From Proteiniphilum propionicum (GTDB taxonomy: Bacteria > Bacteroidota > Bacteroidia > Bacteroidales > Dysgonomonadaceae), in the NCBI RefSeq assembly GCF_022267555.1, contig NZ_CP073586.1:1364001-1428000 (forward strand): a stretch of DNA of 64,000 nucleotides, given 5' to 3'. The position numbers and the translations under genes were made by a program. The first letter of the stretch is position 1; each line of letters opens with the position of its first letter. Below, piece after piece: positions 3,976-24,702 of this stretch. Below the pieces are notes generated by a model, which had not been told where the DNA came from, ran no database searches, and saw only the letters and a program-made list of their open reading frames with translations.

Positions 3976-3983
3976 CGAGATTA
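3976..3983. repeat. Left 8-bp target-site duplication of the composite transposon
   Basis: CGAGATTA immediately precedes the outer end of the left IS66 copy and is repeated exactly at 24139-24146 after the outer end of the right copy. IS66-family elements characteristically duplicate 8 bp. Neither inner flank (AAACAATA at 5933-5940; CATTATATT ending at 22189) matches, so the duplication belongs to the whole 20-kb unit. Confidence 0.9.
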
Positions 3984-5932
3984 GTAACTACTCAGGTACC
4001 CCCTGTCATAGACAGAGAGTCCTGACTAGTCGTCAATAACTATGCTATACTCGAAACTGCGCTTTAGCAAGGGATGCAATAACCCGAAGGACCTCAAAGG
4101 GGTTCTGTCCGTTCTTGACCGCTGTTTGGATGACGGAGGCAACGGTAGCATAGTTCCCGGCTCCTTCCTCGGAGCGGAAGCACCCGCTGACTTTCAATTT
4201 GGTCTTGGCCGGTCTCAATGCCTTCTCGGAGTCATTATTCGTGGGAGGAACAGCGGGATTGGTGAGGAAGGTAAAGATATAGTCCCGGTGTTTGGTAATG
4301 CCTTTTTTGAGTTTATCAAGTTCATTATTCTCCCCGTCTTCTTTCGTGTAAACCGAAGGTCTTTCGAGCAGCTTGTCCAGTCTTTCTTCCATATCTTTCC
4401 TGACCGCTTCTCCAATGTCATTTTCATTGCGATGATGGACGGAGTCCCGCAGCAGGTCGAGCATGTCAAGGCTCCATGGATCATCCGGAAAGGCCTGCAT
4501 CGTGTAGGTAAGGTTCCGCAACAGATGGGCAATGCATATCTGGTGATCCTCCATCCCCACGTCTCCCATGAAGTAGGCCGGAAGTCGGTCAGTGACCCAT
4601 ACCATATTACCTTGCTCTTCCCCGGTAAAGTGCTTGTTGATCACATGGTGGCTTCTGCTGCTGTCAAAGGCGAGGAAGGTGGCTACGGCATTCTGGGAAG
4701 CCCAGAGCCAGTTATTTTTCCCGTTCACGTTGATTCCGGTTTCGTCCGCCCCGGTAACCTTTCCTTCTGCAACTTTCTGACGGATCATTTCGTAGGGCGT
4801 TTTGGAGAATTTCCGCATGGCCTTCAGCATGTTCGATACGGAGCCTTCACTGATGTGGAGTCCGAAGATGGTCTCGTACAGATGGGTGAGTCGCTTGAAC
4901 GGAACATTTTGGTAAGTGCTGAGGTAGGATGTCATCGCCATGATGTTGGGGCCGAAGGATACGGGAGCATTCACCTCTTCCGGAAACTGCCCCTTGCTGC
5001 AATGCCCGCAGGAGCACTTGACCTGCATCGTCATGTGGTTGACAACCGTGGCCGCAATCGGAAGCGGAATGTCCACCACCTGGCGTGTGGCGCTGACGAT
5101 CGCAGCGTCCATCTCCAGCGGCTTTCCACATTCCGGACACACGGAGACGGGGTACCACTGTTGGGTTTCCGTTACATTTTCGGATTGGAGCAGGGTGCTC
5201 CCCGAATGGCCTTTCTGCCCACCGGACTTCCTGCCGGAAGGCTTGCGCTGGGACTGTGTATGCCGGATGCCAATTGGATTCCCGGAGGGCGGGACGCTAC
5301 TGTTCGTGCTATTCTTTATGACGGGTTTCCTGCCACTCCCGAGTTCGGCAACATGGGATGCAAACTCGGCAATACGAGCCTCTTTGACTTTTATTTCACT
5401 GTCACGGACAGAAAGAATAAGATCCATCCGCGCAAGTTCCCTGTCCTTCTCCTCAAGGGTTTTGACAAGAGCCCTGTTGATCTTCGCCTGCACCAGCAGC
5501 CGCTCTGCCAGTTCTGTGGAGTCAAGCTCTTCGCAAAGGCCGAGTTCCCGAAGGATCTGCCTGCGCCGCCGGGAGAGCTTTACCCGGTCTGCCTCGACAC
5601 TCTTTCCAAGTCCTGTATTAAAGTTCTTTTTCATACCTCCACAAAGATCGGGAAAATAATGGATCTGTGCAAATTTAATGATTTGTGCACCAGCGGATTA
5701 AAGGATGTTTCCAGACATTTTGGCAAGACCTGCGCCCCTTCTTTCGGAGGGTCATTCCAAAATTTTTTGAGGGCCTGCAATGCCCTCCAAATAGCCCACA
5801 ATAAGCTGATATATAACAACTTCAATGCAGGGATAGCGGCATGAGGAAAAATTCAAAAAAATTACAACAGGATGTTGACAACCCTGCGACATTCTTCATC
5901 ATTGGTCAGGAAAAGGGAACCTGAGTAGTTAC
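3984..5932 (-). mobile_element. IS66-family insertion sequence, left copy (apparently intact)
   Basis: 1949-bp element with imperfect terminal inverted repeats (GTAACTACTCAGGTACCC at one end; GTAACTACTCAGGTTCCC read inward from the other). It has a single large transposase frame and no recognisable TnpA/TnpB accessory genes, as in IS66 subgroups that carry only the DDE transposase. The paired copy at 22190-24138 has the same length but many base differences, so the two are not products of a very recent duplication. Confidence 0.92.
4045..5634 (-). CDS. IS66-family transposase
   Basis: 529-aa DDE transposase. The N-terminal region contains a coiled coil (about residues 45-90) and a basic PSGNPIG...RKPSGRKSGGQKGH segment. 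A zinc-binding cluster follows (CPECGKPLEM and CSCGHC), then the DDE core with GADETGINVNGKNNWLW, WVTDRLPAYF and an insertion before the C-terminal NNDSEKALRPAKTKLKVSG motif. Length and motif order are typical of IS66 TnpC. This frame is uninterrupted, unlike the right-hand copy, so it is the likely source of transposase for the composite unit. Confidence 0.93.
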   Translation of the reverse strand: MKKNFNTGLGKSVEADRVKLSRRRRQILRELGLCEELDSTELAERLLVQAKINRALVKTLEEKDRELARMDLILSVRDSEIKVKEARIAEFASHVAELGSGRKPVIKNSTNSSVPPSGNPIGIRHTQSQRKPSGRKSGGQKGHSGSTLLQSENVTETQQWYPVSVCPECGKPLEMDAAIVSATRQVVDIPLPIAATVVNHMTMQVKCSCGHCSKGQFPEEVNAPVSFGPNIMAMTSYLSTYQNVPFKRLTHLYETIFGLHISEGSVSNMLKAMRKFSKTPYEMIRQKVAEGKVTGADETGINVNGKNNWLWASQNAVATFLAFDSSRSHHVINKHFTGEEQGNMVWVTDRLPAYFMGDVGMEDHQICIAHLLRNLTYTMQAFPDDPWSLDMLDLLRDSVHHRNENDIGEAVRKDMEERLDKLLERPSVYTKEDGENNELDKLKKGITKHRDYIFTFLTNPAVPPTNNDSEKALRPAKTKLKVSGCFRSEEGAGNYATVASVIQTAVKNGQNPFEVLRVIASLAKAQFRV

Positions 5933-6024
5933 AAACAATACCAATGGCTTTAAATAATTTATTTTCACAATTATCTTCAATATTTAATCACACAACCCGG
6001 TATTTGCATTATTTAACTTTTAAA

Positions 6025-6057
6025 TTGCTTGATAATGTAAACATATGCATATATTTG
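6025..6057 (+). promoter_or_regulatory. Bacteroidetes-type promoter upstream of cargo susC
   Basis: TATATTTG at 6050-6057 matches the -7 consensus TAnnTTTG. TTG at 6025-6027 is a candidate -33 element, with a slightly long 22-bp spacer. The predicted start falls near 6064, directly before the palindrome at 6065-6081. Confidence 0.55.
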
Positions 6058-6064
6058 CACTGTT

Positions 6065-6081
6065 TATATGTAGGACATATA
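6065..6081. promoter_or_regulatory. Candidate GntR operator at the susC promoter
   Basis: TATATGTAGGACATATA is a perfect 7-bp inverted repeat with a 3-bp centre, at the predicted transcription start. A related sequence lies at the gntR promoter (16302-16317), and the similarity extends upstream (TTTGCACTGTT against TTTGTATTGTT). A shared site at the structural operon and at the regulator gene suggests the GntR protein binds both; this is inference. Confidence 0.55.
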
Positions 6082-6234
6082 GTATTTCAAGATACGTACT
6101 AGCATAAACATAACCTAAAATATAAAAGTGAACATGAAGAATTTTTTGATAAACAAAAGGAAACACCATTAGTAAATTTTACCGAACAACTAAAAAATTA
6201 ATTTGACTATGTACAATGTCATATTTTATTAATC

Positions 6235-9200
6235 ATGAAAGTAAATAAATCAAGTATGAAAAAAAACAGGAGATGCGATTCTCATCTTTTGAGAATTTTT
6301 ATGGTTTTGGTCCTTACACCATACTTTGCTTCTTTGTCTGCTTTTCCGATGTTGCCAGGCAACGAAATTTTAAAAACTGAAGGTTCAAAGGAAGCAATAA
6401 GTATCAGTGGACGGATAATAGATCAAGATGGCTTTCCTCTTCCAGGTGTATCGATTATGGTAAAAGGAAAAGAGGGTGTTGGAACTATAACCGACACAGA
6501 AGGTAGGTATTCTTTAAAATGCGACGAAAACGACATTATTGTTTTCTCTTTTATTGGATATATAAGTCTGGAAAAAAGAGCTGGCGATATTGATAAAATT
6601 ACTCTCACACTTAATGAAGATGTTGAGGAATTAGATGAACTTGTGGTGGTTGCTTTTGGAAAACAAAAAAAAGAGAGCCTAGTAAGCTCAATTTCAACCG
6701 TGAATCCGGGAGAACTTGTTGTTCCCTCAAGTAACTTAACTACGGCATTTGCAGGTAGGATGGCGAGTATTATTTCATATCAGAGATCGGGTGAGCCCGG
6801 ACTTGATAATGCAGAGTTCTTTATTAGAGGTATTACAAGTTTCAGTGCAGGGGGTAAAAAGGATCCTTTGATTCTTATTGATGGTATAGAAATGAGTCCT
6901 AATGATCTTGCAAGAATCAACCCTGACGACATAGAATCATTTTCTGTAATGAAAGATGCAAGCTCTGCCGCTTTATATGGAGCACGTGGCGCGAATGGGG
7001 TAATCCTTGTGACTTCTAAGGAAGGACAGAGTGAGAAACTCTCAATTAATGTAAGGGGTGAGGTATCTTCGTCGTCGAACTCGGAGTTGGTTGAACTGGC
7101 CGATCCGATTAGTTATATGAAACTTCACAATGAAGCTGTAAGAACTCGAAATCCTATGGTTGCACTACCCTACTCTTCTAATAAAATATATAATACAGAA
7201 CTTGGAACTGATCCTATCAGGTATCCTTCAGTAGATTGGTATAACTATTTGATTAAAGATCGCACATCAAATCAGCGATTAAATTTCAACCTATCTGGAG
7301 GAGGGCGTGCTGTACAATATTATATTGCAGCTAATTATCAACATGATACTGGTATTTTTAAGGAAAATGAACAGAATAAGTTCAATAATAACATAGACAT
7401 AACTAGGTTCCAACTTCGCTCCAACATTACCATTAAACTAGCACCTAACACTAAAGCAGTAGTGAGAGCATATGGTTCATTTGATGATACTCGAGGTCCC
7501 AGACTTGGTGGTGCTTCTGCTTTCAATATGGCTCGAAATGCTACACCGGTGCGCTTCCTGCCTTTCTACCCGAAAGACGATAAGAATGAGTTTACAAATC
7601 ATATCCTATTTGGTGCGGCAGAGACTGCTTCTACCTACACCAATCCGTTTGCTGAGATAGTGAGTGGTTTCAAGGAGTCTAAAACATCTATGATGTTTTC
7701 ACAAGTTGAGATAGATCATCAGTTCACTGGGGCATTACAGGGATTTTTTGTAAGAAGTCTGTTTAATATTAAAAGAAACTCTTACTATGACCTCCAACGT
7801 TCTTACAACCCCTTTTATTATGCTCCATTAGAAACGGCAGATGGTTCATATGAACTAATTAATTTCAACCCAGATACTGGAACTGAGTATTTGAATTACA
7901 ACTTTGGTGGAAAAAGTGTTACATCTGATGTATATGGTGAATTTCGGGCTGGTTACAACACAACTATAAATGATAAGAACGACCTAAGTATTCTTCTTGT
8001 TGGTTCTTTGCGTAGTGAAACAGATACTGAAGTTACAACAATTGAGGAGTCACTACCAAAAAGAAATATTTCTACTGCAGGCAGGGTTACTTATGGCTAC
8101 GATTCACGCTACTTTTTTGAGGCAAACTTTGGATATAACGGCTCAGAAAGATTCTCAAAAAATAACCGTTTCGGTTTCTTCCCTTCTGTTGGAGCAGGAT
8201 GGATGATAACTAACGAAGAGTTTATGCAGGGTATTCAGAATCAGCTGTCTTCTCTTAAGCTCAGGGCTACTTATGGTTTAGTAGGAAACGACCAAATTGG
8301 ATACTTGAGAGACCGCTTCTTCTATCTTTCACAAGTAAACCTTAACTCAGAAGGATATACTTTTGGTACCGACAGAGGGTATACACGCCCTGGCGTTAGT
8401 ATAAATAGATATGCTAATGATATGATAACATGGGAGATTGCTCACAAATTAAACCTGGGTATTGATCTTACACTTTTAAATGATCTTGATATTATTGCAG
8501 ACTACTTCGTAGAAAGAAGAGAAAATATTTTACAAACAAGGACAGATATCCCGAGTACTATGGGATTAATACAAACTCCTCAAGCTAATGTTGGAGTGGC
8601 CGAAGGTTCAGGTTTTGAGGCTGAGGTGAAATACCAAAAAAGCTTCAATAAAGATATGTTTTTAATAGTTAATGGAAACTTCACTTACGCATCCAGTAAA
8701 TTTATTGAGTACGAGGAGCCCGATTACACCGATGCACCATGGAAGTCTCGAATAGGAAGAAAATTATCACAAGAGTATGGACTTATTGCAGAGAGACTAT
8801 TTATTGATGAAGCAGAGGTAGAAAACTCTCCAAGACAAATGTTTGGTGAATATGGAGCAGGTGATATAAAATATAAGGATATCAATAGAGATGGAGCGAT
8901 AAATGCAGATGATATGGTTCCAATTGGATATCCTACTGTTCCGGAAATTATTTATGGTACCGGATTTACTTTGGGATATAAGAATTTAGATATTTCATGT
9001 TTCTTTCAAGGTTCAACAAGATCTTCATTCTTTATTAATCCATCTGCAATAACTCCCTTTGTAAATAACGGGCAACGTGCATTATTACAAGATATTGCAA
9101 ATGACCATTGGTCAGAAAACAACCGAAATTTAAATGCTTTTTGGCCTCGACTATCGGAATATGAGATTAGTAATAATTCGCAAAGAAGTACATGGTGGCT

Positions 9201-9423
9201 GAGAGATGGAAGTTTTATGCGACTCAAATCGGCCGAAATAGGATATACGATTCCAAAAAGCACAACAAATAAATTAAATATTGACATGCTTCGATTTTAT
9301 GCCAGTGGTTCGAATCTATTTTTATGGTCGAAATTTAAAATGTGGGATCCGGAGATGGCAGGGAATGGATTAGGATATCCTCTACAAAGGGTATTTAATC
9401 TGGGAATAAATATTAATTTTTAA
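6235..9423 (+). CDS. SusC/RagA-family TonB-dependent receptor (composite transposon cargo)
   Basis: 1062-aa outer-membrane transporter expected to work with the adjacent SusD. A start at the internal ATG 6253 (MKKNRRCDSH) is also possible and gives a cleaner signal peptide. Order: signal peptide, carboxypeptidase-regulatory-like domain (ISISGRIIDQDGFPLPGVSI onward), TonB-box-like DELVVVAFGKQKKE, plug with LILIDGIEMSPNDLARINPDDIESFSVMKDASSAALYGARG, then barrel ending in an aromatic residue. No STN domain is present, so it is not expected to signal through FecR; control by the GntR protein encoded downstream fits better. It lies 55 bp upstream of susD. The substrate is inferred from neighbours to be a sialic-acid-containing or related glycan. 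Confidence 0.95.
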   Translation: MKVNKSSMKKNRRCDSHLLRIFMVLVLTPYFASLSAFPMLPGNEILKTEGSKEAISISGRIIDQDGFPLPGVSIMVKGKEGVGTITDTEGRYSLKCDENDIIVFSFIGYISLEKRAGDIDKITLTLNEDVEELDELVVVAFGKQKKESLVSSISTVNPGELVVPSSNLTTAFAGRMASIISYQRSGEPGLDNAEFFIRGITSFSAGGKKDPLILIDGIEMSPNDLARINPDDIESFSVMKDASSAALYGARGANGVILVTSKEGQSEKLSINVRGEVSSSSNSELVELADPISYMKLHNEAVRTRNPMVALPYSSNKIYNTELGTDPIRYPSVDWYNYLIKDRTSNQRLNFNLSGGGRAVQYYIAANYQHDTGIFKENEQNKFNNNIDITRFQLRSNITIKLAPNTKAVVRAYGSFDDTRGPRLGGASAFNMARNATPVRFLPFYPKDDKNEFTNHILFGAAETASTYTNPFAEIVSGFKESKTSMMFSQVEIDHQFTGALQGFFVRSLFNIKRNSYYDLQRSYNPFYYAPLETADGSYELINFNPDTGTEYLNYNFGGKSVTSDVYGEFRAGYNTTINDKNDLSILLVGSLRSETDTEVTTIEESLPKRNISTAGRVTYGYDSRYFFEANFGYNGSERFSKNNRFGFFPSVGAGWMITNEEFMQGIQNQLSSLKLRATYGLVGNDQIGYLRDRFFYLSQVNLNSEGYTFGTDRGYTRPGVSINRYANDMITWEIAHKLNLGIDLTLLNDLDIIADYFVERRENILQTRTDIPSTMGLIQTPQANVGVAEGSGFEAEVKYQKSFNKDMFLIVNGNFTYASSKFIEYEEPDYTDAPWKSRIGRKLSQEYGLIAERLFIDEAEVENSPRQMFGEYGAGDIKYKDINRDGAINADDMVPIGYPTVPEIIYGTGFTLGYKNLDISCFFQGSTRSSFFINPSAITPFVNNGQRALLQDIANDHWSENNRNLNAFWPRLSEYEISNNSQRSTWWLRDGSFMRLKSAEIGYTIPKSTTNKLNIDMLRFYASGSNLFLWSKFKMWDPEMAGNGLGYPLQRVFNLGININF

Positions 9424-9478
9424 ATATTGAGATGAAATTCTCAAATTATTGATACAACAATTATAAAGAAAAAATTAT

Positions 9479-11443
9479 ATGAAAAATTTATCAAAAATAG
9501 CATTTATACTGTCATTCATGATTACTATTATTTCATGCAATCAGTTCTTGGATGTTGTTCCTGATGATACTCCTACGCTCGATCATGCATTTGCTAACAG
9601 GGCAATGAGCGAAAGATATCTATTTACATGCTATAAACATCTACCCGACCCGACAAACCCATACCATTATCCCGCACATTTGAATACCAACGATGAATTT
9701 TATCTTATTGGTGGAGAATCAAATCAACATACACAATCGGCTCCATCTACAGAGATACGTAGAGGGAATCAAAACAGCAACAGTCCTCTAATGGATTATT
9801 GGTCTGGAAAAAATGGTGGACGAAGCATGTTTAATGCTATACGAGATTGCAATATTTTCCTCGAAAATATCAATATACCAAAAGATATTGATGAGACCGA
9901 AAGAAGCCGATGGATTGCGGAAGTGAAGTTTTTGAAAGCTTATTATCACTTCTTCCTTTTACAGCTGTACGGACCCATACCGCTGATCAAAGAAAACTTC
10001 GAGCTTTATGATTCTCCTGAAGCAATTAAAGTATATCGAGAGCCATTTGATGAGTGTATTGATTATATTGTTGAGCTTATTGATGAATCTCTCTCTGATC
10101 TACCTTTGACAATTACTAATAATATTCAGGAGGATGGACGTATTACACAACCAATTGCATTAGCTGTAAAAGCAAAAGCTCTGACATTAGCAGCAAGCCC
10201 ACTCTTCAATGGAAATAGTGATTATAGTGGATGGGTAGACAAAAGAGGCGTACAGTTAGTATCAAACTCTTATGACAATGAGAAGTGGAAGATAGCATTA
10301 GACGCGATTGAAGAGGCAATTGATGTTGCTCACAGTGCTGGTCATCAATTATATAAGTACAATAAAGATGCAGATGGACAGTTTAATATGAACGAGAGTA
10401 TCTCTATTCTTATGAACACAAGAAAAGGCATTACTGAGAAATGGAATAGTGGAGTAATTTGGTCGAGTATGGAAACGTTCGGAAATAAAAACAACATCAT
10501 TCCAACGTATGCCGCAATGGCTAATTTTCAATGGATTTTATTTCCTATTATGTATAGTCAGGATGTAGGAAAAGGTCCAACCTCATACTGCTACGCCTCT
10601 TTTGATATGGCTGAGCTCTTTTATACCAGAAATGGAATACCTATTTACGAAGATCCTTCATGGGATTATTCAAGTAGATACAACATACGCTATAGCACTA
10701 CTGAAGATAATAATGAGCACTATATTCCTGTGGGAGAAGCTACTGCAGCACTAAACTTTGATAGAGAACCGCGATTTTATGCAAGTCTTGGATTTGACAG
10801 AGGATATTTTGAATTATCTACCACTTCGAACAATTTTGGAAGTTCTTTTAGCCGTTATCTCACACTTCGAGCTGGAGAAGCTGGTAATCTCTCAAATGAG
10901 ACAGGCTATTCTGTTAAAAAACTTATTGCATTTGAAACCTCTTTAAGTCGTGGCTCTTCAAGTAATAATTATCAAGGTTACGACTATAGATTTCCATTAA
11001 TAAGACTTGCAGACCTATACTTGCTGCATAGTGAGGCTGCGAATGAATATTACGACAGCCCGAATGATGAAGTTTATGTATACATAGACAAGGTACGTGA
11101 AAATGTAGGACTACCCGGAGTAGTTAATTCATGGAGTAGCTCCTTGAACCCCAACCGACCTTTTGATAAGGTTGAGATGCGAAAAATAATTCAACAAGAG
11201 CGCATGATAGAACTTGCATTTGAGGGTCAACGATTCTGGGATATAAGAAGATGGAAACTGGGAGATGAATATTGGACACGTGCACCAAGAGGGTGGAACC
11301 AGAAAGGCAGAACTCTCGATGAGTATTACCAAGTAATTAATCTTGGTAAACCAAGAAGTTTTTCTCCAGTAGAATATCTTTGGCCGATAAGTATTTATGA
11401 TTTAAGAATTAACAATAACTTGGAACAGACTTTTGGCTGGTAG
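9479..11443 (+). CDS. RagB/SusD-family surface glycan-binding lipoprotein
   Basis: 654-aa lipoprotein with lipobox IISC (Cys near residue 20) followed by NQFLDVVPDDTPTLDHAF, the typical SusD start. The TPR-like helices include KFLKAYYHFFLLQLYGPIPLI, and the C-terminal family signature is IIQQERMIELAFEGQRFWDIRRWKLG. It should cap the SusC channel on the cell surface and bind the incoming glycan. It is slightly long for the family (usually 500-600 aa). It is co-directional with susC and followed 26 bp later by another lipoprotein gene, so the four genes from 6.2 to 13.9 kb look like one operon. Confidence 0.95.
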   Translation: MKNLSKIAFILSFMITIISCNQFLDVVPDDTPTLDHAFANRAMSERYLFTCYKHLPDPTNPYHYPAHLNTNDEFYLIGGESNQHTQSAPSTEIRRGNQNSNSPLMDYWSGKNGGRSMFNAIRDCNIFLENINIPKDIDETERSRWIAEVKFLKAYYHFFLLQLYGPIPLIKENFELYDSPEAIKVYREPFDECIDYIVELIDESLSDLPLTITNNIQEDGRITQPIALAVKAKALTLAASPLFNGNSDYSGWVDKRGVQLVSNSYDNEKWKIALDAIEEAIDVAHSAGHQLYKYNKDADGQFNMNESISILMNTRKGITEKWNSGVIWSSMETFGNKNNIIPTYAAMANFQWILFPIMYSQDVGKGPTSYCYASFDMAELFYTRNGIPIYEDPSWDYSSRYNIRYSTTEDNNEHYIPVGEATAALNFDREPRFYASLGFDRGYFELSTTSNNFGSSFSRYLTLRAGEAGNLSNETGYSVKKLIAFETSLSRGSSSNNYQGYDYRFPLIRLADLYLLHSEAANEYYDSPNDEVYVYIDKVRENVGLPGVVNSWSSSLNPNRPFDKVEMRKIIQQERMIELAFEGQRFWDIRRWKLGDEYWTRAPRGWNQKGRTLDEYYQVINLGKPRSFSPVEYLWPISIYDLRINNNLEQTFGW

Positions 11444-11469
11444 ATTTGTAACTAATAACATTTGATTTT

Positions 11470-12732
11470 ATGAAGAAAATTTTACTTATACTAACTGTCT
11501 GTTTGTTGATTGCCTGCGAACAGAACGAACAGATAAAGGTGAAACCTGCACAATTAACTGATTACAAAGTTTCGCCTATTAATGGAGGTGCTACAATTAC
11601 TTATACTCTGCCTCCAGAATCGGATATTTTATATGTTGTAGCTGAATATAAGAGAGATGGTGAGATATTTACCGAACGCTCTTCATTTTATAATAATAGC
11701 ATTACAATTGAAGGATTTAATGTAACAACTCCTATTGATGCTATTCTGTATACTGTTAATAGAGAGGAAATGAAGTCTGACCCAATCCAAATTGTCTTTG
11801 AGCCACTCGAATCACCTTTAAGCTTGGCTTTTAAAACACTTGATGTTTCAACAGGTTTTGGTGGAATTGTGGTTTCATGGGAGAATTTGAATTCTACTGA
11901 GCTTGGAGTGAGGCTTATGGTCAAAGAGAACGATGAGATTAAAAACAAAGATATGTTTTTCTCCAGCTTCGAGAAAGAAAATCATACTTTCAGAGGATTT
12001 GAAAGTGAAGAAACAACTTTTGCAGTTTCAATTGAAGATAAATGGGGAAATGTATCTGATACTATATTTTATACAACTACTCCATTTTTTGAAACAGAGG
12101 TACCTAAGCCTTTTGGGGATATGAGGCAAACAATTCCGTTTGACATTACTACACAAAATCCCACTTTTAATTGGCCAAGACTGTTTAACAACATAGTGGG
12201 AGATGATAGTTGGCTGACAACAACACCAACAGCAGCAAATCCTCAACTTTGTGCTTTCACAATAGACTTAAAACAAGTGTATAAACTGAGTCGAATGACT
12301 ATATGGCCACGTATGAGGCCTAACAACCATAATGATGTATATGCCGTAAACAATGTTCTTTCTTTTGAGATGTGGGGTACTACTGAAATAGATCCTGCAA
12401 GACTGTCTGACCGCGCGTACTGGCTTGATGAGCATCAGGATTGGAACACTTTTAATCCTGGACTTGAAATACCAGACTATACTTTTAAAGACGATTGGGT
12501 ATATCTTGGATATTATGAAGTGGAACGACTGGATTTAAAGGGTGCTACTCCAACAGATATTATGAATCGTGCACTACAAGGAGAACCATTAGATATCCCT
12601 ATTGATGTGGGACCTGTAAGATATATACGCTTTTTCCCACGCTCGACAGACAAAGGAAGTCCAACGCCTGGTGCAATTTTTCAGATAGCTGAGCTCAGTT
12701 TCTTTGGGGATAACACAGTGAATCAAGAATAA
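11470..12732 (+). CDS. DUF4959/DUF5126/DUF5000-type surface lipoprotein
   Basis: 420-aa lipoprotein (LLIACEQNE lipobox). The region after it (VKPAQLTDYKVSPINGGATITYTLP) matches the DUF4959 type; a middle Ig-like domain and a C-terminal discoidin/F5-8C-like DUF5000 domain follow (from about residue 215, ending GAIFQIAELSFFGD). Such proteins commonly follow SusD and are thought to bind glycan at the cell surface as SusE/SusF-like accessory factors. There are 26 bp to susD and 9 bp to the next gene, supporting co-transcription. Domain names rest on remembered family patterns. Confidence 0.82.
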   Translation: MKKILLILTVCLLIACEQNEQIKVKPAQLTDYKVSPINGGATITYTLPPESDILYVVAEYKRDGEIFTERSSFYNNSITIEGFNVTTPIDAILYTVNREEMKSDPIQIVFEPLESPLSLAFKTLDVSTGFGGIVVSWENLNSTELGVRLMVKENDEIKNKDMFFSSFEKENHTFRGFESEETTFAVSIEDKWGNVSDTIFYTTTPFFETEVPKPFGDMRQTIPFDITTQNPTFNWPRLFNNIVGDDSWLTTTPTAANPQLCAFTIDLKQVYKLSRMTIWPRMRPNNHNDVYAVNNVLSFEMWGTTEIDPARLSDRAYWLDEHQDWNTFNPGLEIPDYTFKDDWVYLGYYEVERLDLKGATPTDIMNRALQGEPLDIPIDVGPVRYIRFFPRSTDKGSPTPGAIFQIAELSFFGDNTVNQE

Positions 12733-12741
12733 TTTAATACA

Positions 12742-13866: not shown

Positions 13867-13894
13867 ATATTTAATAATAAGTAAGACTGATTAA

Positions 13895-13935
13895 AGCGGG
13901 AAGCAGGTTATATAAACGGACCTCCCCTTCCCGCT
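13895..13935 (+). terminator. GC-rich hairpin closing the SusCD-lipoprotein run
   Basis: AGCGGGAAG and CTTCCCGCT form a 9-bp stem around a 23-nt loop, between the DUF4998 gene and the predicted glycosidase gene. There is no long T-run, so it may be an RNA-stabilising or attenuating hairpin rather than a full terminator. Confidence 0.5.
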
Positions 13936-13962
13936 TGAATTATATTAAAAAAGAAATTCAAT

Positions 13963-16221: not shown

Positions 16222-16286
16222 TTATACAAAGCACAGTATTGACTTTCTCTAGCTTCTTATAAGTTTTAACAATATAAAAAAAATCA

Positions 16287-16317
16287 TATGTTTGTATTGT
16301 TAATATGTAGGAGATAT
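16287..16317 (+). promoter_or_regulatory. gntR promoter with candidate operator
   Basis: TATGTTTG at 16287-16294 fits the Bacteroidetes -7 element. AATATGTAGGAGATAT at 16302-16317 resembles the palindrome at 6065-6081. Alignment gives TGTTnATATGTAGGAnATAT in both places. The site suggests autoregulation. Confidence 0.55.
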
Positions 16318-16344
16318 GTAGTGTGGGACCCTAAAATAAAGGAT

Positions 16345-17073
16345 ATGAAAAGTTTAGAAATAAGTAAAGTGACAACAACTTTAGTAGATTTAGCTGAAGA
16401 AGCAATAATGGATTTTATTAAAGGTTCTGACCTCCAGCCAGGGGATAAATTCCCTTTTGATGAGAGTCAGCTTGCAGAAAAGTTGCAAGTAAGCCGTAAT
16501 GTAATCAGAGAAGCTTTAAGCAGGCTACAATCAATTGGCTTAATAGAAAGTAGGAAAAGAAATGGTATAATTATGCGAGAGCCAAGTCTTAAACATATTT
16601 TAAATCGAATAATTAATCCGAAACTATTAAGTGAAAACAAAATTACTGATCTATTAGAACTTAGGTATATATTAGAGATAGGTATAGTTCCGATCATTTT
16701 CGAAAACATTAACAAAATGGACATATCAGAATTGCGAAAGATAATACCAAATACAATAACGAGTAATGTTTATGTTAGACTTTCGGCAGATGAAGAAATA
16801 GAATTTCACTCACGTATTTATAAAGTTGCGGACAATAAAGTCATAAACGAGCTACAGCAAATTATAATACCAATTTACAAATTCATTCAAAAAAATCATT
16901 CTGAATTTGACATATACAATAAAAAAATAAGAGATGAGAAATTGTTCGCATCGCATTCTGACTTAATTGATGCCTTAGAGTCAGGAGATCAAAAAAAGTA
17001 TGAAGATGTAATCAAAAGGCATTTACTGGCCTATCATTTATATATTAAAGAACAAAGGCAAAAAAACATTTAG
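16345..17073 (+). CDS. GntR/FadR-family transcriptional regulator
   Basis: 242-aa regulator. The frame is also open to an ATG at 16288, but that codon lies inside the -7 promoter element. ATG 16345 (MKSLEISKVTTTLVDLAEEA) has a purine-rich stretch just upstream and starts at the normal distance before the winged helix. The HTH is LQPGDKFPFDESQLAEKLQVSRNVIREALSRL (residues 35-70). The C-terminal part (from about 100) is an all-helical FCD-type ligand domain. The stop is 1 bp before the aldolase start. Such regulators often sense sialic or other sugar acids; here it probably controls the cargo operon through the palindromes at 6065 and 16302. Confidence 0.88.
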   Translation: MKSLEISKVTTTLVDLAEEAIMDFIKGSDLQPGDKFPFDESQLAEKLQVSRNVIREALSRLQSIGLIESRKRNGIIMREPSLKHILNRIINPKLLSENKITDLLELRYILEIGIVPIIFENINKMDISELRKIIPNTITSNVYVRLSADEEIEFHSRIYKVADNKVINELQQIIIPIYKFIQKNHSEFDIYNKKIRDEKLFASHSDLIDALESGDQKKYEDVIKRHLLAYHLYIKEQRQKNI

Positions 17074-17074
17074 T

Positions 17075-17977
17075 ATGAGATTAACTAAGTTTGAAGGATT
17101 GATTGCTGCAGCCGTAACTCCTATGACTGCAAATGGAGAAATTAATTTGAAAGGTATAGATAACTATTCAAATTTTTTAATAAAAAGAGGAGTAAAAGGA
17201 GTTTTTGTAAACGGCACTACTGGTGAAGGATTGCTTTTAGATGTTAATGAGCGTAAAGCAATAGTTGAAAAATGGATGAAGTATTCTACTGATTTGAAAA
17301 TTTTAGTTCATGTTGGAAGTACCAGTATAAAGGTGGCTCGAGAACTGGCATCGCACGCAGAAGAACTTGGTGCTGATGCTATATCGTGTATGGGTCCATC
17401 TTATTTGCCACCACAAGGCACTAAGGAATTAGTGGAGTTTAACAAACAGGTTGCAGCGAGAGCATCTAATACCCCTTATTACTATTATCATATTCCGATA
17501 GTTTCAGGTGTTCATGTAAGCATGGTTGACTTTTTAGGTGAGGCTCACAAAGTTATACCTAATTTGAATGGCTTAAAGTATACGTCATATAACACAATGG
17601 AGGAGCAAATGTGTATTAATTTTATGAATAAAAGATTTGACATTCTACATGGGCATGATGAAAGCCTACTGTTGGGATTAACTATGGGTGAAAAAGGTGG
17701 TATTGGGACTTCATATAATGTATCATCTTCAATATTCGACAGAATTCTTGCTTTATATAAAGAAGGGGATCTATCAGGGGCAATGGAATTACAATATGAA
17801 GCAAATCAATTTATTGAGCTCTTGCTGAAATATGAGAACACAATTGTAAGTATAAAAGCAATACTTAATTTATTAGGTGTAGATTGTGGACCTTGCAGAT
17901 TACCATTAAGGAATTTGAATTCTGAAGAAATAAAGTCACTTGAAAGTGACCTAATGGAGTTCGATTGGATAAGATGA
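17075..17977 (+). CDS. nanA: N-acetylneuraminate-lyase-like aldolase (DapA/NanA family)
   Basis: 300-aa class I aldolase that would cleave a sialic acid to pyruvate and an N-acyl-hexosamine in the cytoplasm. Seen: NGTTGEG substrate loop (residues 46-52), YYYHIPIVSGV with the catalytic Tyr (about 137), and the Schiff-base Lys in GLKYTSYN (about 167). The HIP and KYTS contexts fit NanA better than dihydrodipicolinate synthase. It is nearly overlapping gntR and precedes an SSS symporter. No epimerase (nanE) or ROK kinase is in the cargo, so downstream steps must be chromosomal or the true substrate may differ from Neu5Ac. Confidence 0.85.
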   Translation: MRLTKFEGLIAAAVTPMTANGEINLKGIDNYSNFLIKRGVKGVFVNGTTGEGLLLDVNERKAIVEKWMKYSTDLKILVHVGSTSIKVARELASHAEELGADAISCMGPSYLPPQGTKELVEFNKQVAARASNTPYYYYHIPIVSGVHVSMVDFLGEAHKVIPNLNGLKYTSYNTMEEQMCINFMNKRFDILHGHDESLLLGLTMGEKGGIGTSYNVSSSIFDRILALYKEGDLSGAMELQYEANQFIELLLKYENTIVSIKAILNLLGVDCGPCRLPLRNLNSEEIKSLESDLMEFDWIR

Positions 17978-18128
17978 AAGCTTAATATTTTACATCAATA
18001 CCTGTAATGAGTAGAAATAATAGTCGCAATTTATGTCCGGATAGAAAATCTTATTAGTTGATTAAAACCCAAAATAGAATTAGATAATACATCTCTATTT
18101 GTAACAATTACGAAAAGAAAAAATAAAC

Positions 18129-19598
18129 ATGAAGCTAACATACTTTGATTGGGCAATTATAATAGGATATTTAATTCTTATGTTGTTATTAGGATTTTTT
18201 ACTTCGAAGAAAAATAAAACAGCAGAGGATTATATTTTAGGAGGAAAATCAATGAATCCTTTTATGATTGGTATATCTCTGTTTGCTACGCTCTTTAGCA
18301 CGTTAAGTTATCTTTCATATCCCGGCGAAATGATAAAATATGGTTATGTGTTTTTAGTAGGCGTATTAGCTTTTCCTGTAGCCAATTGGATGATAGGCAA
18401 GTTTCTGATTCCGAAGTTTATGAGAATGAACGTAAAAAGTGCCTATGAAATTTTGGAAATAAAATTAGGTGCTAAGAGTAGGAAGTTAGCTGTTATTTTC
18501 TTCCTGGCATTACGATTTTTATGGATGGCAACAATCATTTATGCAACGATTGAGATTGCATTTGTTCCGATTTTTAATTTAAACAGTTCTCTTGTTCCAT
18601 TAATAAGCTTTATATTATCTCTGCTCACCATAGCATATACAACAATGGGAGGTATTAAAGCAGTGGTTAAAACAGATGTAGCTCAGTCTTTTATAATGTT
18701 TTTTGGGCTAATTCTTACAATAGTTTTTATAATTAACCATTTGGGCTTGGAACAATCTATATTCAAATCATCAATTTATTCTCATTGGGAGCCTGTTGAA
18801 TATATGATCAATCCTATTAAGAGAATGACCGTAGGAAATATTCTCATTATGACTCTCGTTTGGCAGGTATGTACATCTGGGTCAGACCAAATTGCCATAC
18901 AAAGATATCTGTCAACAAAGGATGTGGAGTCTGCTAAAAAGTCATACAAGATTTCGCTTTGGGGTTCCACAATCATTCAGATATTATTAGCTGTTACAGG
19001 CTTATGTGTAATGACATTTTTTTTCTATAACCCGAACTTGATCGAAGATGGTGGAACTATGTTTGATAATGCTGACTCATTATTCCCTTTATATATAAGA
19101 ATTGGGCTTCCCTCTGGCTTAACAGGTTTGATTGCTGCAGGTATTCTATCGGCAGCTATGTCAAGTTTATCCTCTGGTCTAAATTCAAGTTCAGCAGTAA
19201 TTTCTGAGGAAATAATTAACAGAAAGGGAGAAAAGCACTCCGAAACTACGGACTTAAAATTAGTAAAAAAAACATCTTTATTTGTTGGAGTACTTGTGGC
19301 TCTATCAAGTTTATTACTGTCTTATATTACAGGTAATTTGTTTGATGTTGTACAAAAGGTTGTAAATTTAATAGTGGCACCTCTTTTTGTTCTATTCTTT
19401 CTGGCATTGTTCGTTCCTTTTTCAACTGATAAATCGACAACTATAGCTGGAATTTTATCGTTAGTAATCGCAATTTTAATTGCATTTTTTGAAATATTCG
19501 GAATATCTTCCTTATGGATTATGACACTTTCTTTAATAGGAGGTATACTAATAGGAGTAATTTTAAGTTATATCGAAAATAAAATAAATCAGTACTGA
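18129..19598 (+). CDS. Sodium:solute symporter (SSS family), probable sialic/sugar acid transporter
   Basis: 489-aa inner-membrane protein with about 13 hydrophobic segments. It starts at YFDWAIIIGYLILMLLLGFF, with GGKSMNPFMIGISLFATLFSTLSYLSYPGE and VSSLSSGLNSSSAV-like SSS motifs (SAAMSSLSSGLNSSSAVISEE). It would import the sugar released outside or in the periplasm, using sodium. It sits after nanA with a 151-bp gap. The stop codon TGA spans the edge of the following IS4-type element (T at 19596, GA from the element), so the final residues may not be the ancestral C-terminus. Confidence 0.9.
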   Translation: MKLTYFDWAIIIGYLILMLLLGFFTSKKNKTAEDYILGGKSMNPFMIGISLFATLFSTLSYLSYPGEMIKYGYVFLVGVLAFPVANWMIGKFLIPKFMRMNVKSAYEILEIKLGAKSRKLAVIFFLALRFLWMATIIYATIEIAFVPIFNLNSSLVPLISFILSLLTIAYTTMGGIKAVVKTDVAQSFIMFFGLILTIVFIINHLGLEQSIFKSSIYSHWEPVEYMINPIKRMTVGNILIMTLVWQVCTSGSDQIAIQRYLSTKDVESAKKSYKISLWGSTIIQILLAVTGLCVMTFFFYNPNLIEDGGTMFDNADSLFPLYIRIGLPSGLTGLIAAGILSAAMSSLSSGLNSSSAVISEEIINRKGEKHSETTDLKLVKKTSLFVGVLVALSSLLLSYITGNLFDVVQKVVNLIVAPLFVLFFLALFVPFSTDKSTTIAGILSLVIAILIAFFEIFGISSLWIMTLSLIGGILIGVILSYIENKINQY

Positions 19599-21021
19599 CC
19601 GACTAAAAAATAAGGCGCAAAAAAGATAGGGACTTAACCGAAGTCTCGTCCCTAAGTTGTAAATTTGGATTGTCTAAAAACTAAATTTCCAACCATGGGC
19701 AAAGATAAGTCAAAAAATTTAGTCGGTCAGCCACTGTTCAAACAAATTGTGAAAATGTTGCCAAAAGATGAATTTGATCTCTTGGTGTCGAAGTGCGGGA
19801 GCGACCGTTACTATAAAACATTTTTTTCTTGGGAACAGCTTATAGTGATGCTCTTCGGCATCTTTTCACGTTGCGATTCCATGGGGGAAGTCTGTGACGG
19901 GATGCGGGCATTGGGTGGGAAGCTGAATTACCTTGGTATGGACGTGGCTCCTGCAAAGAGCACGGCGGGCGACGCTTTGCGTGATCGTGATGAAGAACTT
20001 TTCAGGCTATATTATTTTGCCCTGATATCCTATTTTCGTCCGCTTTTATCGGTCAGCCGAAAAAAAGACGTCAGTTTCGATGAGTTTTACGCTTTCGATT
20101 CCACCACGATGACCCTTTTTTCACAAGTGATGCAAGGGGTGGGACGCAACCCCAAGGGTGAAGGCAAGAAAAAAGGAGGCATGAAAGTACACATGCTGAC
20201 CGACGTGCACACGGAGACGGCCGTTTTTGCCAAGATCAGCGAGGCAAAAATGCATGACAAGAAGTTCCTGGCACATTTAAATCCCGGAAGGGGTAGCATG
20301 TTGGTCTTTGACAAGGCATATAATTACTACCTGCAATTTGCTGAATGGACACTACAGGGCGTGAATTTTGTTTGTCGCTTGAAGGATAATGCCAAAGTGC
20401 AGGTGCAGGAGGTTTTGTTTGAAAGGACGCTCTCCAAAGAAGAGTTCGGCGTTTACAAGGTCGAACACATCCATTTGGATTACAAACAAGATAAGCAGGT
20501 AAAAACGGTTTGTTTGCGATTGGTTCATTATAAAGATGAGCAGAAACGAAAATATAAGTTCATAACCAACAATTGGTCGATAACGCCCCAAGAGGTTGCT
20601 TTGATTTACAAGTATCGCTGGACTATCGAGCTATCGTTCAAAAAATTGAAACAGAACTTTCAACTGCATTTTTTCTATTCGGATACGGAGAATGGTATAA
20701 AAACGCAGGTTTGGTGCACGTTGATCGCACATTTGTTGCTTCAAGTCATCCAGGTGGTGAATGAAAGCAAGAAAGCGTTCTCAACTATTGCAGCTTTGAT
20801 AAGGATACACCTGATAAGTCATTTGGAGTTGGCTTGGGTGGTGACCGAAGGCAGAAAGGCATACACTAAACGGGGAAAAAGACGGAACAAAAGTCCCACG
20901 GCCATACAAATGTCGTTGTTTTAAAGGGGGTAGGTTTTATGAAAACAAAAAATGAAATTATAACAATATAGATATCTGATAATTATAAAAAGGGATCGGC
21001 AAAACGCAGGTTTTGTCGGTT
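19597..21021 (+). mobile_element. IS4-type insertion sequence within the composite transposon
   Basis: An element of about 1.4 kb carrying one transposase gene. Short putative ends are GACCGAC at 19597 and GTCGGTT ending at 21021 (inverted match 6 of 7). I could not see a convincing target duplication, so the boundaries are approximate. It separates the symporter gene from the sialidase-fold gene, which were probably adjacent before. Confidence 0.7.
19695..20924 (+). CDS. IS4-family transposase (DUF4372 N-terminus)
   Basis: 409-aa DDE transposase from the ATG at 19695 (MGKDKSKN). The frame is open to 19665, but the internal start matches the family's usual N-terminus. Visible: N-terminal DUF4372-like region (FSWEQLIVMLFGIFSRCDSMGE), DDE core with YAFDSTTM, VFDKAYNYY, and a Y-R-E-K-type stretch YKYRWTIELSFKKLKQN. 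The C-terminal tail is basic. Coding sequence intact. Confidence 0.9.
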   Translation: MGKDKSKNLVGQPLFKQIVKMLPKDEFDLLVSKCGSDRYYKTFFSWEQLIVMLFGIFSRCDSMGEVCDGMRALGGKLNYLGMDVAPAKSTAGDALRDRDEELFRLYYFALISYFRPLLSVSRKKDVSFDEFYAFDSTTMTLFSQVMQGVGRNPKGEGKKKGGMKVHMLTDVHTETAVFAKISEAKMHDKKFLAHLNPGRGSMLVFDKAYNYYLQFAEWTLQGVNFVCRLKDNAKVQVQEVLFERTLSKEEFGVYKVEHIHLDYKQDKQVKTVCLRLVHYKDEQKRKYKFITNNWSITPQEVALIYKYRWTIELSFKKLKQNFQLHFFYSDTENGIKTQVWCTLIAHLLLQVIQVVNESKKAFSTIAALIRIHLISHLELAWVVTEGRKAYTKRGKRRNKSPTAIQMSLF

Positions 21022-21054
21022 AATAGTGAAAATAAATAACAAAAAAGCAAGTAT

Positions 21055-22074
21055 ATGAGAAAACAATATTTAATTGTATTAATACTCTTTTTTTCATCAA
21101 ATTTAATGGCACAAACTAATTGTGTTACAGTAAAAAAAATATGGGATAATGGTAAACATAACGCGTTCACCTCATTAATTAAGTTTAAAGATGCCTACTA
21201 CTGCTCTTTCAGAGAAGGAGAGACACATATCTTTGACTCTTCAGGAAAAGCTGAAGGAAAAGTTCGTATTTTAAAATCTATTGATGGAAAAAACTGGAAA
21301 TCAGTTGCTTATTTCGGAAAAGATAACTACGATTTAAGAGATCCTAAACTTTCAATTACTCCCGACCACAGACTCATGGTAACTATTGGCGGTTCAATTT
21401 ATGAGGGTTGGAATTTAACAGGTAGAAATCCAATGGTTGTATTTAGTGATGATGGTGAGTGCTTTTCTGACCTAATACCGGTAAAAATTCATGATGATGC
21501 CGGTAACGGTAAAGATTGGATTTGGAGAGTTACCTGGCATAAGAATATTGGTTATACAGCGATGTATTCTATGACAGCAGATAGAGAGGCATACTTAACT
21601 TTACTCTCGACCAAAGACGGTATTAACTATAAGTTTGTTTCAAAACTTGAAGTTCCAAATTTTCCAAATGAAGCTACAATACGCTTTGACTCGGATGATA
21701 AAATGTATATTATGGTAAGACGTGATATTATTGGATGCTGGGGGAAAAGCAACTATCCATATGTAAATTGGGAGTGGAAAGATATGGATATTCGTCTTGG
21801 TGGACCAGATTTTATTTTCTTGGATGATAACACAACCATTATGGGAACACGATCACATTACACATCAATACCGAAAACAGTATTGCTAACAGGAAAAGGA
21901 ACAGAAAAGTTTGAAGAAGTTTATGTATTACCCTCAGGTGGCGACAACAGCTATACAGGTTTTCAGATTGCTGAAGATGAACTATGGGTGAGTTATTACT
22001 CAACTCACGAAACCAAAAATTCATCAATTTACATTGCCAAGATGCCATTAAGTATATTTGAGTCAAAAAAATAG
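21055..22074 (+). CDS. Secreted sialidase-fold beta-propeller protein
   Basis: 339-aa protein with a signal peptide ending at LMAQ. The rest looks like a six-bladed propeller with Asp-box motifs (SIDGKNW, SDDGECFSD, STKDGINY) and scattered Arg residues (CSFREG, RDPKLSI, VRRDI, GTRSHYT) that could form an anion-binding triad. Bacterial exo-sialidases use this fold, but I do not see a canonical FRIP motif and the protein is short, so sialidase activity is inferred mainly from the nanA-like neighbour. An IS4-type insertion separates it from the rest of the operon and may supply or block its transcription. Confidence 0.68.
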   Translation: MRKQYLIVLILFFSSNLMAQTNCVTVKKIWDNGKHNAFTSLIKFKDAYYCSFREGETHIFDSSGKAEGKVRILKSIDGKNWKSVAYFGKDNYDLRDPKLSITPDHRLMVTIGGSIYEGWNLTGRNPMVVFSDDGECFSDLIPVKIHDDAGNGKDWIWRVTWHKNIGYTAMYSMTADREAYLTLLSTKDGINYKFVSKLEVPNFPNEATIRFDSDDKMYIMVRRDIIGCWGKSNYPYVNWEWKDMDIRLGGPDFIFLDDNTTIMGTRSHYTSIPKTVLLTGKGTEKFEEVYVLPSGGDNSYTGFQIAEDELWVSYYSTHETKNSSIYIAKMPLSIFESKK

Positions 22075-22189
22075 TCTTAATATGAGATCTTCTTTTCTTT
22101 CATATTTAAGTTAATTAAACTTCTGTAATTAGCAAACTTACAATGTACAACTTTTGGCAATATGCAATGTACAGGTTTAACATTATATT

Positions 22190-24138
22190 GTAACTACTCA
22201 GGTACCCCCTGTCATAGACAGAGAGTCCTGACTACTCGTCAATAACTATGCTATACTCGAAACTACGCTTTAGCAAGGGATGCAATAACCCGAAGGACCT
22301 CATAGGGGTTCTGTCCGTTCTTGACCGCTGTTTGGATGACGGAGGCAACGGTAGCATAGTTCCCGGCTCCTTCCTCGGAGCGGAAGCACCCGCTGACTTT
22401 CAATTTGGTCTTGGCCGGTCTCAATGCCTTCTCGGAGTCGTTGTTCGTGGGAGGAACAGCTGGATTGGCGAGGAAGGTAAAGATATAGTCCCGGTGTTTG
22501 GCAATGCCTTTTTTGAGTTTGTCAAGTTCGGTATTCCCCCCTTCTTCTTTCGTGTAAACCGGAGGCCTTTCGAGCAGTTTGTCCAGTCTTTCTTCCATAT
22601 CTTTCCTGACCGCTTCTCCAATGTCATTTTCATTGCGATGATGGACGGAGTCCCGCAGCAAGTCGAGCATGTCGAGGCTCCATGGATCATCCGGAAAGGC
22701 CTGCATCGTGTAGGTGAGGTTCCGCAACAGATGGGCAATACATATCTGGTGATCCTCCATCCCCACCTCTCCCATGAAGTAAGCCGGAAGCCGGTCAGTG
22801 ACCCATACCTTATTACCCCGTTCTTCCCGGGTAAAGTGCTTGTTGATGACATGATGGCTTCTGCTGCTGCCAAAGGCGAGGAAGGTGGCCACGGTATTCT
22901 GGAAAGCCCAGAGCCAGTTGTTTTTCCCGTTCACGTTGATCCCGGTCTCGTCCGCCCCGGCAACCTTTCCACCTGCAACTTTCTGACGTATCATTTCGTA
23001 GGGCGTTTTGGAGAATTTCCGCATGGCGTTCAGCATGTTCGATACAGAGCCTTCACTGATGTGGAGTCCGAAGATGGTCTCGTACAGATGGGTGAGTCGC
23101 TTGAACGGAACATTTTGGTAAGTGCTGAGGTAGGATGTCATCGCCATGATGTTGGGGCCGAAGGATACGGGAGCGTTCACCTCTTCCGGGAACTGTCCCT
23201 TGCAGCAATGCCCACAGGAGCACTTGACCTGCATCGTCATGTGGTTCACAACCGTGGCCGCAACCGGAAGCGGAATGTCCACCACCTGGCGTGTGGCGCA
23301 GACGATCGCAGAATCCATCTCCAGCGGCTTTTCACATTCTGGACACACCGGGACGGGGTACCACTGTTGGGTTTCCGTTACATTCTCGGATTGGAGCAGG
23401 GTGCTCCCCGAATGGCCTTTCTGCCCACCGGACTTCCTGCCGGAAGGCTTGCGCCGGGACTGTGTATGCCGGATGCCAATTGGATTCCCGGAGGGCGGAA
23501 CGCTGCTGTTCGTGCTGGTCTTGATGACGGGTTTCCTGCCACCCCGTGTTCGGCAACACGGGATGCAAGCTCGGCTATACGAGCCTCTTTGACTTTTATT
23601 TCACTGTCACGGACAGAAAGAATAAGATCCATCCGCGCAAGTTCCCTGTCCTTCTCCTCAAGGGTTTTGACAAGAGCCCTGTTGATCTTCGCCTGCACCA
23701 GCAGCCGCTCTGCCAGTTCTGTGGAGTCAAGCTCTTCGCAAAGGCCGAGTTCCCGAAGGATCTGCCTGCGCCGCCGGGAGAGCTTTACCCGGTCTGCCTC
23801 GACACTCTTTCCAAGTCCTGTATTAAAGTTCTTTTTCATACCTCCACAAAGGTCGAAAAAATAATGGACATGTGCAAATATAATGATTTGGGCATCAATG
23901 GATTAAAGGCTGTTCCCAGGCGTTTTGGCGAGACCTGCGCCTCTTATCCCGGAGGGTCATTCCAAAAATTTTTGGAGCCCTGCAATACCCTCCAAATATC
24001 CCTCAACAAGCTGATATATAACAATTTCAATCCATGGATAGCGGCATGAGGAAAAATTCAAAAAAAGTTACAACAGGATCTCGACAACCCTGCGACATTC
24101 TTCATCATTGGTCAGAAAAAGGGCACCTGAGTAGTTAC
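22190..24138 (-). mobile_element. IS66-family insertion sequence, right copy (defective transposase)
   Basis: 1949 bp, with the same termini as the left copy (GTAACTACTCAGGTACCC start; CACCTGAGTAGTTAC end). It is followed at 24139 by CGAGATTA, the right half of the 8-bp target duplication. Its transposase frame is broken, so movement would depend on the left copy. Confidence 0.92.
22263..23839 (-). pseudogene. IS66 transposase pseudogene
   Basis: Compared with the intact left copy, one base is missing near 23,545-23,555 (corresponding to the VAELGSGRKP region), which shifts the frame after about 90 residues. The remainder (CPECEKPLEM through SLAKA) is open in the next frame. A CAG-to-TAG change also removes the last four residues (QFRV). 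The total IS length is unchanged because another base is gained outside the gene. The product should be non-functional. Confidence 0.85.
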
Positions 24139-24702
24139 CGAGATTATAAGAAAGAAAATAAGGGGTGAAAAGTTTTCACTTTTCAATTTAGCCAATGTCT
24201 TCGACATCAGTTTGTGACACGCAGGAACGGTTATATTCATCAAATTGGATATCTCCACATAGTCGTAGCCCTGTATAAATCGAAGATAAATTATTTCGCG
24301 CTGACGATTGGTGAGAACATTCAGTATATTATTTATCTTCTTTTCTAGGCTTAGTTGCTCTTCTCTGTCTATCAACTCATCCTCTATTGTTACTTTCAAA
24401 GTAAAGGGTATGGGATTCTGAATATATTCGTTATCGAAGTCAATATATTTTTTTTGGGCTTTGTCGATGTCGAGAAGCCTGTTTTTAAGTGACCGAAATA
24501 AATAGAATTTTATATTTTGCACATTGTCCAGTATTTTGCTGTTGATACATATTTTACAAAATATATCGTGAATAGCATCCATTATCAACTGGTGATTGAA
24601 TCCGAGATTCTGTGCATAGCTATATAAATCATCGACATACTGATTGTATAGAGAATCTATATCAATTTGTATATAATTATACTTGTCGCTCTTGTTCGTC
24701 AT
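24112..24702 (-). CDS. ECF-type RNA polymerase sigma factor with transposon-derived tail
   Basis: 196-aa sigma factor from ATG 24702 (MTNKSDKYNY); an upstream ATG at 24744 is less likely. Region 2 is seen at DDLYSYAQNLGFNHQLIMDAIHDIFCKI and region 4 at LTNRQREIIYLRFIQGYDYVEISNLMNIT. It should direct transcription of a susC/fecR-type locus. The composite transposon entered its last codons: the native tail would have read ...LIISGSSC, but it now reads ...LIISVTTQVPFF using IS66 sequence. Regions 2 and 4 are intact, so activity is probably kept. Its FecR partner is now 20 kb away at 2676-3866. Confidence 0.9.
   Translation of the reverse strand: MTNKSDKYNYIQIDIDSLYNQYVDDLYSYAQNLGFNHQLIMDAIHDIFCKICINSKILDNVQNIKFYLFRSLKNRLLDIDKAQKKYIDFDNEYIQNPIPFTLKVTIEDELIDREEQLSLEKKINNILNVLTNRQREIIYLRFIQGYDYVEISNLMNITVPACHKLMSKTLAKLKSENFSPLIFFLIISVTTQVPFF
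24139..24146. repeat. Right 8-bp target-site duplication
   Basis: CGAGATTA, identical to 3976-3983. It lies inside the sigma-factor reading frame; removing one copy and the transposon restores the original stop codon. Confidence 0.9.

Follow-up and report, generated by a model that had tools for sequence, protein, structure and literature searches.

A SusC/SusD-type polysaccharide-utilisation locus (PUL) of Proteiniphilum propionicum is enclosed by two IS66-family elements, and the footprint left by these elements suggests that the whole block probably entered its present site in one insertion, as an IS66-type composite transposon of the ISBst12 group. The locus was analysed in a stretch of 64,000 nucleotides (the window; G000:C1:1364001-1428000) from a single-contig genome of 3,906,720 bases.

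Boundaries and footprint of the unit

The first-pass annotation had described two directly oriented IS66 copies of 1949 bp each, and these were borne out to the base. The copies, named A and B, enclose 16,257 bp of DNA and form with it a unit of 20,155 bp (Table 1). The same 8-bp sequence, CGAGATTA, was found immediately outside both ends, and the outermost ends are the only place in the unit with a shared 8-bp duplication. The inner 8-mers differ, with AAACAATA after A versus ATTATATT before B. The outer pair and the inner mismatch had been reported before, with the sequence before B given as CATTATATT, which is one letter too long. The probability that a random pair of 8-mers matches was 3.1e-5 with flank sequence and 3.6e-5 with cargo sequence. 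The former value makes a chance match of the outer 8-mers very unlikely, and this explanation was rejected (about 3e-5 per pair). Copies of one IS family are thus present on both sides of unrelated cargo, and a target duplication of the length made by the family is restricted to the outermost ends, which is the arrangement of a composite transposon.

Table 1. Features of the unit and of its target site, in window coordinates
Feature	Position	Strand	Remarks
FecR anti-sigma gene at target	2676..3866	-	followed by a different susC/susD pair
Left target duplication	3976..3983		8 bp, CGAGATTA
IS66 copy A, ISBst12-type	3984..5932	-	transposase gene 4045-5634 (minus), 529 aa, open
Cargo	5933..22189	+	16,257 bp, G+C 35.6%
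susC-type TonB-dependent transporter	6235..9423	+	TIGR04056 above cut-off
susD-type surface lipoprotein	9479..11443	+	PF07980
DUF4959/DUF5126/DUF5000 protein, probable lipoprotein	11470..12732	+	
DUF4998 protein, probable lipoprotein	12742..13866	+	
752-aa protein, guessed exported glycosidase	13963..16221	+	conserved family, no database family match
GntR/FCD regulator	16288..17073	+	best NCBIfam model NanR, below cut-off
NanA-like aldolase, DHDPS family	17075..17977	+	nearest solved structures are N-acetylneuraminate lyases
Sodium:solute symporter	18129..19598	+	last two codons and stop inside IS4 insert
IS4-family element	19590-21028 (19581..21037 with duplications)		1439 bp; transposase 19665-20924
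339-aa sialidase-like protein	21055..22074	+	Asp-box-like repeats by eye, no family match
IS66 copy B	22190..24138	-	94.7% identical to A; transposase frame split in assembly
Right target duplication	24139..24146		8 bp, CGAGATTA
ECF sigma-factor gene at target	24112..24744	-	last residues now from IS end

The two IS66 copies belong to different lineages

The transposase of A matched the IS66 transposase model NF033517 with 247.8 bits (cut-off 180) as well as PF03050, and the transposase fragment of B also matched PF03050. One long transposase-matching frame among the domain-scanned frames in 1949 bp, about 300 bp beyond this frame and 8-bp duplications place the elements in the ISBst12 group. 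Members of the ISBst12 group are not known to carry tnpA or tnpB. A and B differ in 104 of 1950 aligned columns.

A search of this genome with A yielded seven matches, of which four are full-length and three partial. Two of the full-length copies are solitary (1294243-1296193 and 2002390-2004340), and each is bounded by its own exact 8-bp duplication (TATTTTTT and ATAAAGTT), so that the 8-bp duplications ascribed to IS66 in the first-pass annotation can be seen in the same genome. Both are 99.9% identical to B, from which each differs at two positions, all of them single-base homopolymer lengths. Copy B has no 8-bp duplication of its own, although its lineage does make them. Since the B-type solitary copies have their own duplications, the lack of individual duplications at the unit is informative.

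In all three B-type copies the transposase frame is split, and each copy has a one-base homopolymer difference of its own. The split frames reflect either sequencing error in repeats or real decay. Judged from its open frame, A could supply transposase today, while B apparently cannot if the split frame is real.

A and B are separated by 102 substitution sites, which were used to type the copies. B itself and both solitary copies were B-type at 102/102 sites. Full-length A-type copies are also present in G102 (genus g3), with 8 differences, and in G130 (genus g11), with 10 differences (99.5% identity); both were A-type at 98/102 sites, and at the same four sites A alone departs. G009 (genus g1), whose assembly is flagged as 8% contaminated, has an A-type stretch of 1434 bp with 99.7% identity. 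Inside the two copies of the window no mosaic structure or crossover is visible, informative sites being absent from about 113 bp at the start and 14 bp at the end of the 1949 bp. Because both copies are unmixed members of their lineages, homologous recombination between IS copies as the builder of the unit was largely rejected, except within these uninformative ends. Matching 8-bp flanks were absent from both full-length A-type copies outside this genome (2/2, G102 and G130), so that, in this lineage, the lack of a duplication is not confined to composites.

In the family, A matched 12 of 101 genomes, this one included. Order-wide, 2 of 393 genomes matched, namely this genome and one with a 62-base match. 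Copy B, used as query in eight family genomes, matched four of them, and the sole full-length match was the A-type copy of G130. The numbers of matches per genome are lower bounds in the family and order searches with A, cargo and IS4 (2 or 3 candidates scored per genome), and likewise in the sigma-gene search (5 candidates per genome) and in one cargo search (7). A had no match among plasmids. For 7968 cargo bases only two plasmid records were obtained, with matches of 101 and 89 bases, and viral contigs gave no match to one inner junction or to the IS end.

The surroundings of the related copies were also inspected. In G102, the A-type IS66, with unmatched flanking 8-mers, is on a 5.6-kb contig (L122, G102:C5; 134-2082 and 4697-5614). 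A C10-family peptidase gene and a MobA/VirD2-type relaxase lie beside it, and the contig represents one possible carrier. In G130 (L121), the A-type IS66 at 8893-10841, with unmatched flanks, lies about 370 bp ahead of a susC. This susC (11215-17920 region, with susD) is 52% identical to that of the cargo and is interrupted in turn by a further insertion (frame 14142-15659). Elsewhere in the P. propionicum genome, a stretch that includes an IS66 remnant (L073, 6822-13001; G000:C1:2590821-2597000) is 99.97% identical over at least 6180 bp to a contig, C42, in G012, which is a different species of the same genus. From this identity, the stretch looks like a recently shared element.

The unit lies between a sigma-factor gene and its FecR neighbour

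The "sigma-gene tail" noted beside the insertion turned out to be a real ECF sigma-factor gene, of which only the last residues have been replaced. When the flanks were joined with one CGAGATTA, the sigma frame ended four codons past the duplication and 94 bp before the FecR start. The susC and susD behind FecR (L069) are 36% and 29% identical to those of the cargo. In G041 (L143), susC-susD is preceded by a sigma gene and a FecR gene that are direct neighbours; in G014 (L144), about 2 kb lie between the two genes. The sigma gene, the FecR gene and both IS66 transposase genes are all on the minus strand; the insertion therefore puts 20 kb between the sigma gene and FecR with its susC, and the latter two may now lie behind a promoter of A.

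An empty site and a second location of the unit had been set as tests, and neither was found. The joined-flank pattern, with up to 3 mismatches, occurred in 0 of 39 genus genomes, the occupied genome of the window included, and among the few candidates scored in this genome the cargo appeared only once. DNA relatives of the sigma gene were found in 21 of 101 genomes, this one included, and the best one elsewhere was 68% identical over 321 bases. With one genome per species and no close sigma-gene relative in the 100 other genomes, the empty-site search has low power, and we regard both outcomes as uninformative rather than contrary.

To the right of the unit, a tyrosine recombinase and a group II intron reverse transcriptase are encoded (window 41066-42466 and 35678-36979). 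This region is possibly another mobile element.

Gene content of the cargo

In the cargo, susC and susD are adjacent, as in a PUL, and no conjugation or mobilisation gene was recognised among its ORFs. The susCD pair, lipoproteins, gntR, nanA-like gene and symporter listed in the first-pass annotation are all present. The IS4-family element, a third IS, was not in that list, and its names glycosidase and sialidase were not supported. The aldolase matched solved N-acetylneuraminate lyases at 1e-64, but its scores against the NCBIfam models for this enzyme, 179.3 bits (cut-off 281) and 153.9 bits (cut-off 382), are below the cut-offs. Given its nearest solved relatives, it may act as an N-acetylneuraminate lyase. 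No downstream amino-sugar enzyme was recognised in the cargo. For the 752-aa and 339-aa proteins, labelled "glycosidase" and "sialidase" in the first pass, no Pfam or NCBIfam family was obtained at E 0.001, and PDB sequences gave nothing usable; at E 5 in Pfam, the 752-aa protein had two chance-level matches only. The 752-aa protein nevertheless belongs to a conserved family. An alignment of 23 sequences, this one included, showed many invariant residues, and relatives were found at 19 loci (Bacteroidota; MAGs of Clostridia, Kiritimatiellae and Acidobacteriaceae; others). Taken together, the cargo genes would import and probably break down a sialic-acid-like sugar.

A related gene set was found in G045 (genus g8, L145), where eight of the nine cargo PUL genes lie together and the 752-aa gene is absent. 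At the protein level, identities were 67% for the regulator, 71% for the aldolase, 76% for the symporter and 72% for the sialidase-like protein; they were 53% for susC, 44% for susD, and 29% and 29% for the two lipoproteins. As G045 shares these eight genes, the cargo represents a recurring locus type. The G045 locus also contains an extra 317-aa gene that is missing from the cargo. Together with the scores of the aldolase and the lack of a recognised downstream amino-sugar enzyme, this speaks against the earlier description of a "complete sugar-acid utilisation locus". In the 15 kb of the G045 locus, no IS66 or IS4 transposase match was found, and the symporter and sialidase-like genes are uninterrupted by IS4, indicating that the IS4 insert separated these two genes in the cargo.

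Among the matches scored in family genomes, neither the susC-lipoprotein block nor the regulator-symporter block had a long-stretch relative above about 72%. The 339-aa protein was at most 47% identical to anything elsewhere in 393 order genomes, a draw to which G045 (72%) evidently did not belong. Third-codon-position G+C was 0.25-0.34 for the nine cargo PUL genes. Because 12 other window genes span 0.22-0.55, these low values are no proof of foreign origin.

A separate IS4 insertion and traffic between genera

The IS4 insert is bounded on each side by its own 9-bp duplication, AAAATAAAT, and is the only copy found in this genome (all 40 candidates scored). It is letter-identical over 1439 bp to at least three G130 copies, all of which have 9-bp duplications of their own. 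The identical IS4, together with the 99.5% A-type IS66 in G130, indicates that DNA passed between these genera recently, either directly or via a common pool. Cargo segments 6235-13866 and 16222-19598 had no high-identity match in G130, which therefore seems an unlikely donor of the locus itself. These comparisons point to a recent crossing between genera by some of the DNA of the unit, which is evident for the IS elements and which the cargo may have shared.

Most likely history and its alternatives

We propose that two different ISBst12-type elements, A and B, flanked the locus at an earlier address, and that transposase used the outer ends, left in A and right in B. The whole block would then have been inserted once between the sigma-factor and FecR genes, and the duplicated CGAGATTA would be the footprint of this act. 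The IS4-family element entered the cargo in a separate event, as its own 9-bp duplication shows. A single transposition of the whole unit had been proposed in the first-pass annotation and is the best-supported reading, to which the duplications of the solitary copies and the unmixed types of both IS copies add support. It is also in line with the adjacent sigma and FecR genes of G041, with the sigma frame restored by joining the flanks and with the G045 locus that has no IS66 match. Against it stand the empty site, second location and donor that were not found, the two A-type copies elsewhere without matching flanks, and the gap of about 2 kb between the sigma and FecR genes of G014. It is from the outer footprint that movement as a unit is deduced.

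An outer duplication with an inner mismatch is equally predicted if a lone IS66 made the CGAGATTA duplication between the sigma and FecR genes and a circle of the cargo with one IS66 joined it later, through homologous recombination or a transposase-guided insertion adjacent to the IS already in place. The latter route is known for translocatable units of the IS6/IS26 family. Homologous recombination would be expected to leave mosaics, but A and B are unmixed, so a single crossover would have to be confined to the outermost 113 bp or so on one side or 14 bp on the other; for the guided route, no such report was found in the IS66 literature consulted. We consider this two-step history unlikely. 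Far less probable still is a native locus flanked by two independent IS66 insertions, the match of the outer 8-mers then being a coincidence. The genome does have several IS66 copies and other susC loci, so two neighbouring copies are nothing unusual as such. However, the chance match would be about 3e-5, the expected copies of AAACAATA to the left of A and of ATTATATT to the right of B are absent, and the sigma gene and FecR would need to have been separated beforehand by a foreign PUL. Independent insertion of A and B was rejected, since the flanks contradict it. We give just as little credence to an assembly artefact, that is, a false join through IS66 repeats, for example one that placed a cargo segment inside a genuine lone IS66. 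Taken by itself, the match of the outer 8-mers is compatible with such a join, as a lone IS would carry the same pair, and the private one-base homopolymer differences in all three B-type copies resemble residual long-read repeat errors. Nevertheless, given the 5% difference between the unmixed copies A and B, an assembler switch would need to fall in the short uninformative ends, and the single-contig genome showed no other address of the cargo among the candidates scored.

Insertion of the complete composite transposon may have been the end of a longer path. It is possible, although we lean against it, that the unit recently arrived from another genus: an unsampled PUL donor of the same family, packaging by ISBst12-type elements, a carrier since lost and a final jump into the chromosome, within the sigma/FecR pair of another PUL. 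The proposal that the locus moves without conjugative genes holds only within a cell; between cells another carrier would still be needed. Copy-and-paste transposition has been ascribed to an ISBst12 member in the account of ISDge4 (PMC12898284). If this holds here, the lone copy of the unit means that the donor molecule was not kept.

Comparison with known systems

ISDge4, an ISBst12-group element of Deinococcus geothermalis, has, as described in PMC12898284, one transposase gene and an 8-bp duplication as here. The IS ends read GTAACTACTCAGGT here versus GTGACTACTCAGCA and GTAACTGCTCAGCA in that description, agreeing by eye in 11 of 14 letters each. ISDge4 was caught moving as a lone IS, whereas here two different members bracket a 16 kb cargo (PMC12898284). 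Tn6097 of Paracoccus, a 17.8-kb composite, likewise combines an IS pair with a metabolic block and an outer-end duplication, according to its description in PMC3281130. It differs in its IS1634-family ends, its 6-bp duplications and the experimental capture of its transposition, and it carries arginine deiminase and drug-resistance modules (PMC3281130). A 270-kb segment of an Agrobacterium At plasmid is also enclosed by two directly oriented IS66 copies in the account of PMC6778807. Each of these has its own 8-bp duplication, which is the opposite signature to that of the unit here, and the authors favour loss of the segment by homologous recombination (PMC6778807). The tIS66 elements, for example ISPa75, show that the IS66 family carries non-transposition genes, as here, but ISPa75 as presented in PMC12888890 has one passenger inside a single three-gene IS66, unlike the composite described here. 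Among gut mobile elements, 47 SusC/SusD loci were reported in a survey that also counted composite transposons (PMC6907783). Those PULs are on mobile DNA as here, but that survey, as far as consulted, ties none to an IS66 composite with a shared duplication (PMC6907783). Among the open-licence papers listed, none linked a PUL to an IS66 composite.

Significance

In Bacteroidota, PUL exchange is usually credited to conjugative elements. The mechanism proposed here is an ordinary, known one, and its new elements are the cargo and the IS66 group. The mark of a simple jump bounded by IS copies is seen on a whole SusC/SusD locus, and one IS element of this unit has letter-identical copies in another genus. 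An IS66-type pair has here the footprint of a composite, versus the role of recombination substrate given to such a pair in the At plasmid account (PMC6778807). The exact junction sequences provide markers for tracking such loci in communities. If the arrival from another genus is true, composite transposition would be a conjugation-independent last step in the spread of glycan-use loci within the family.
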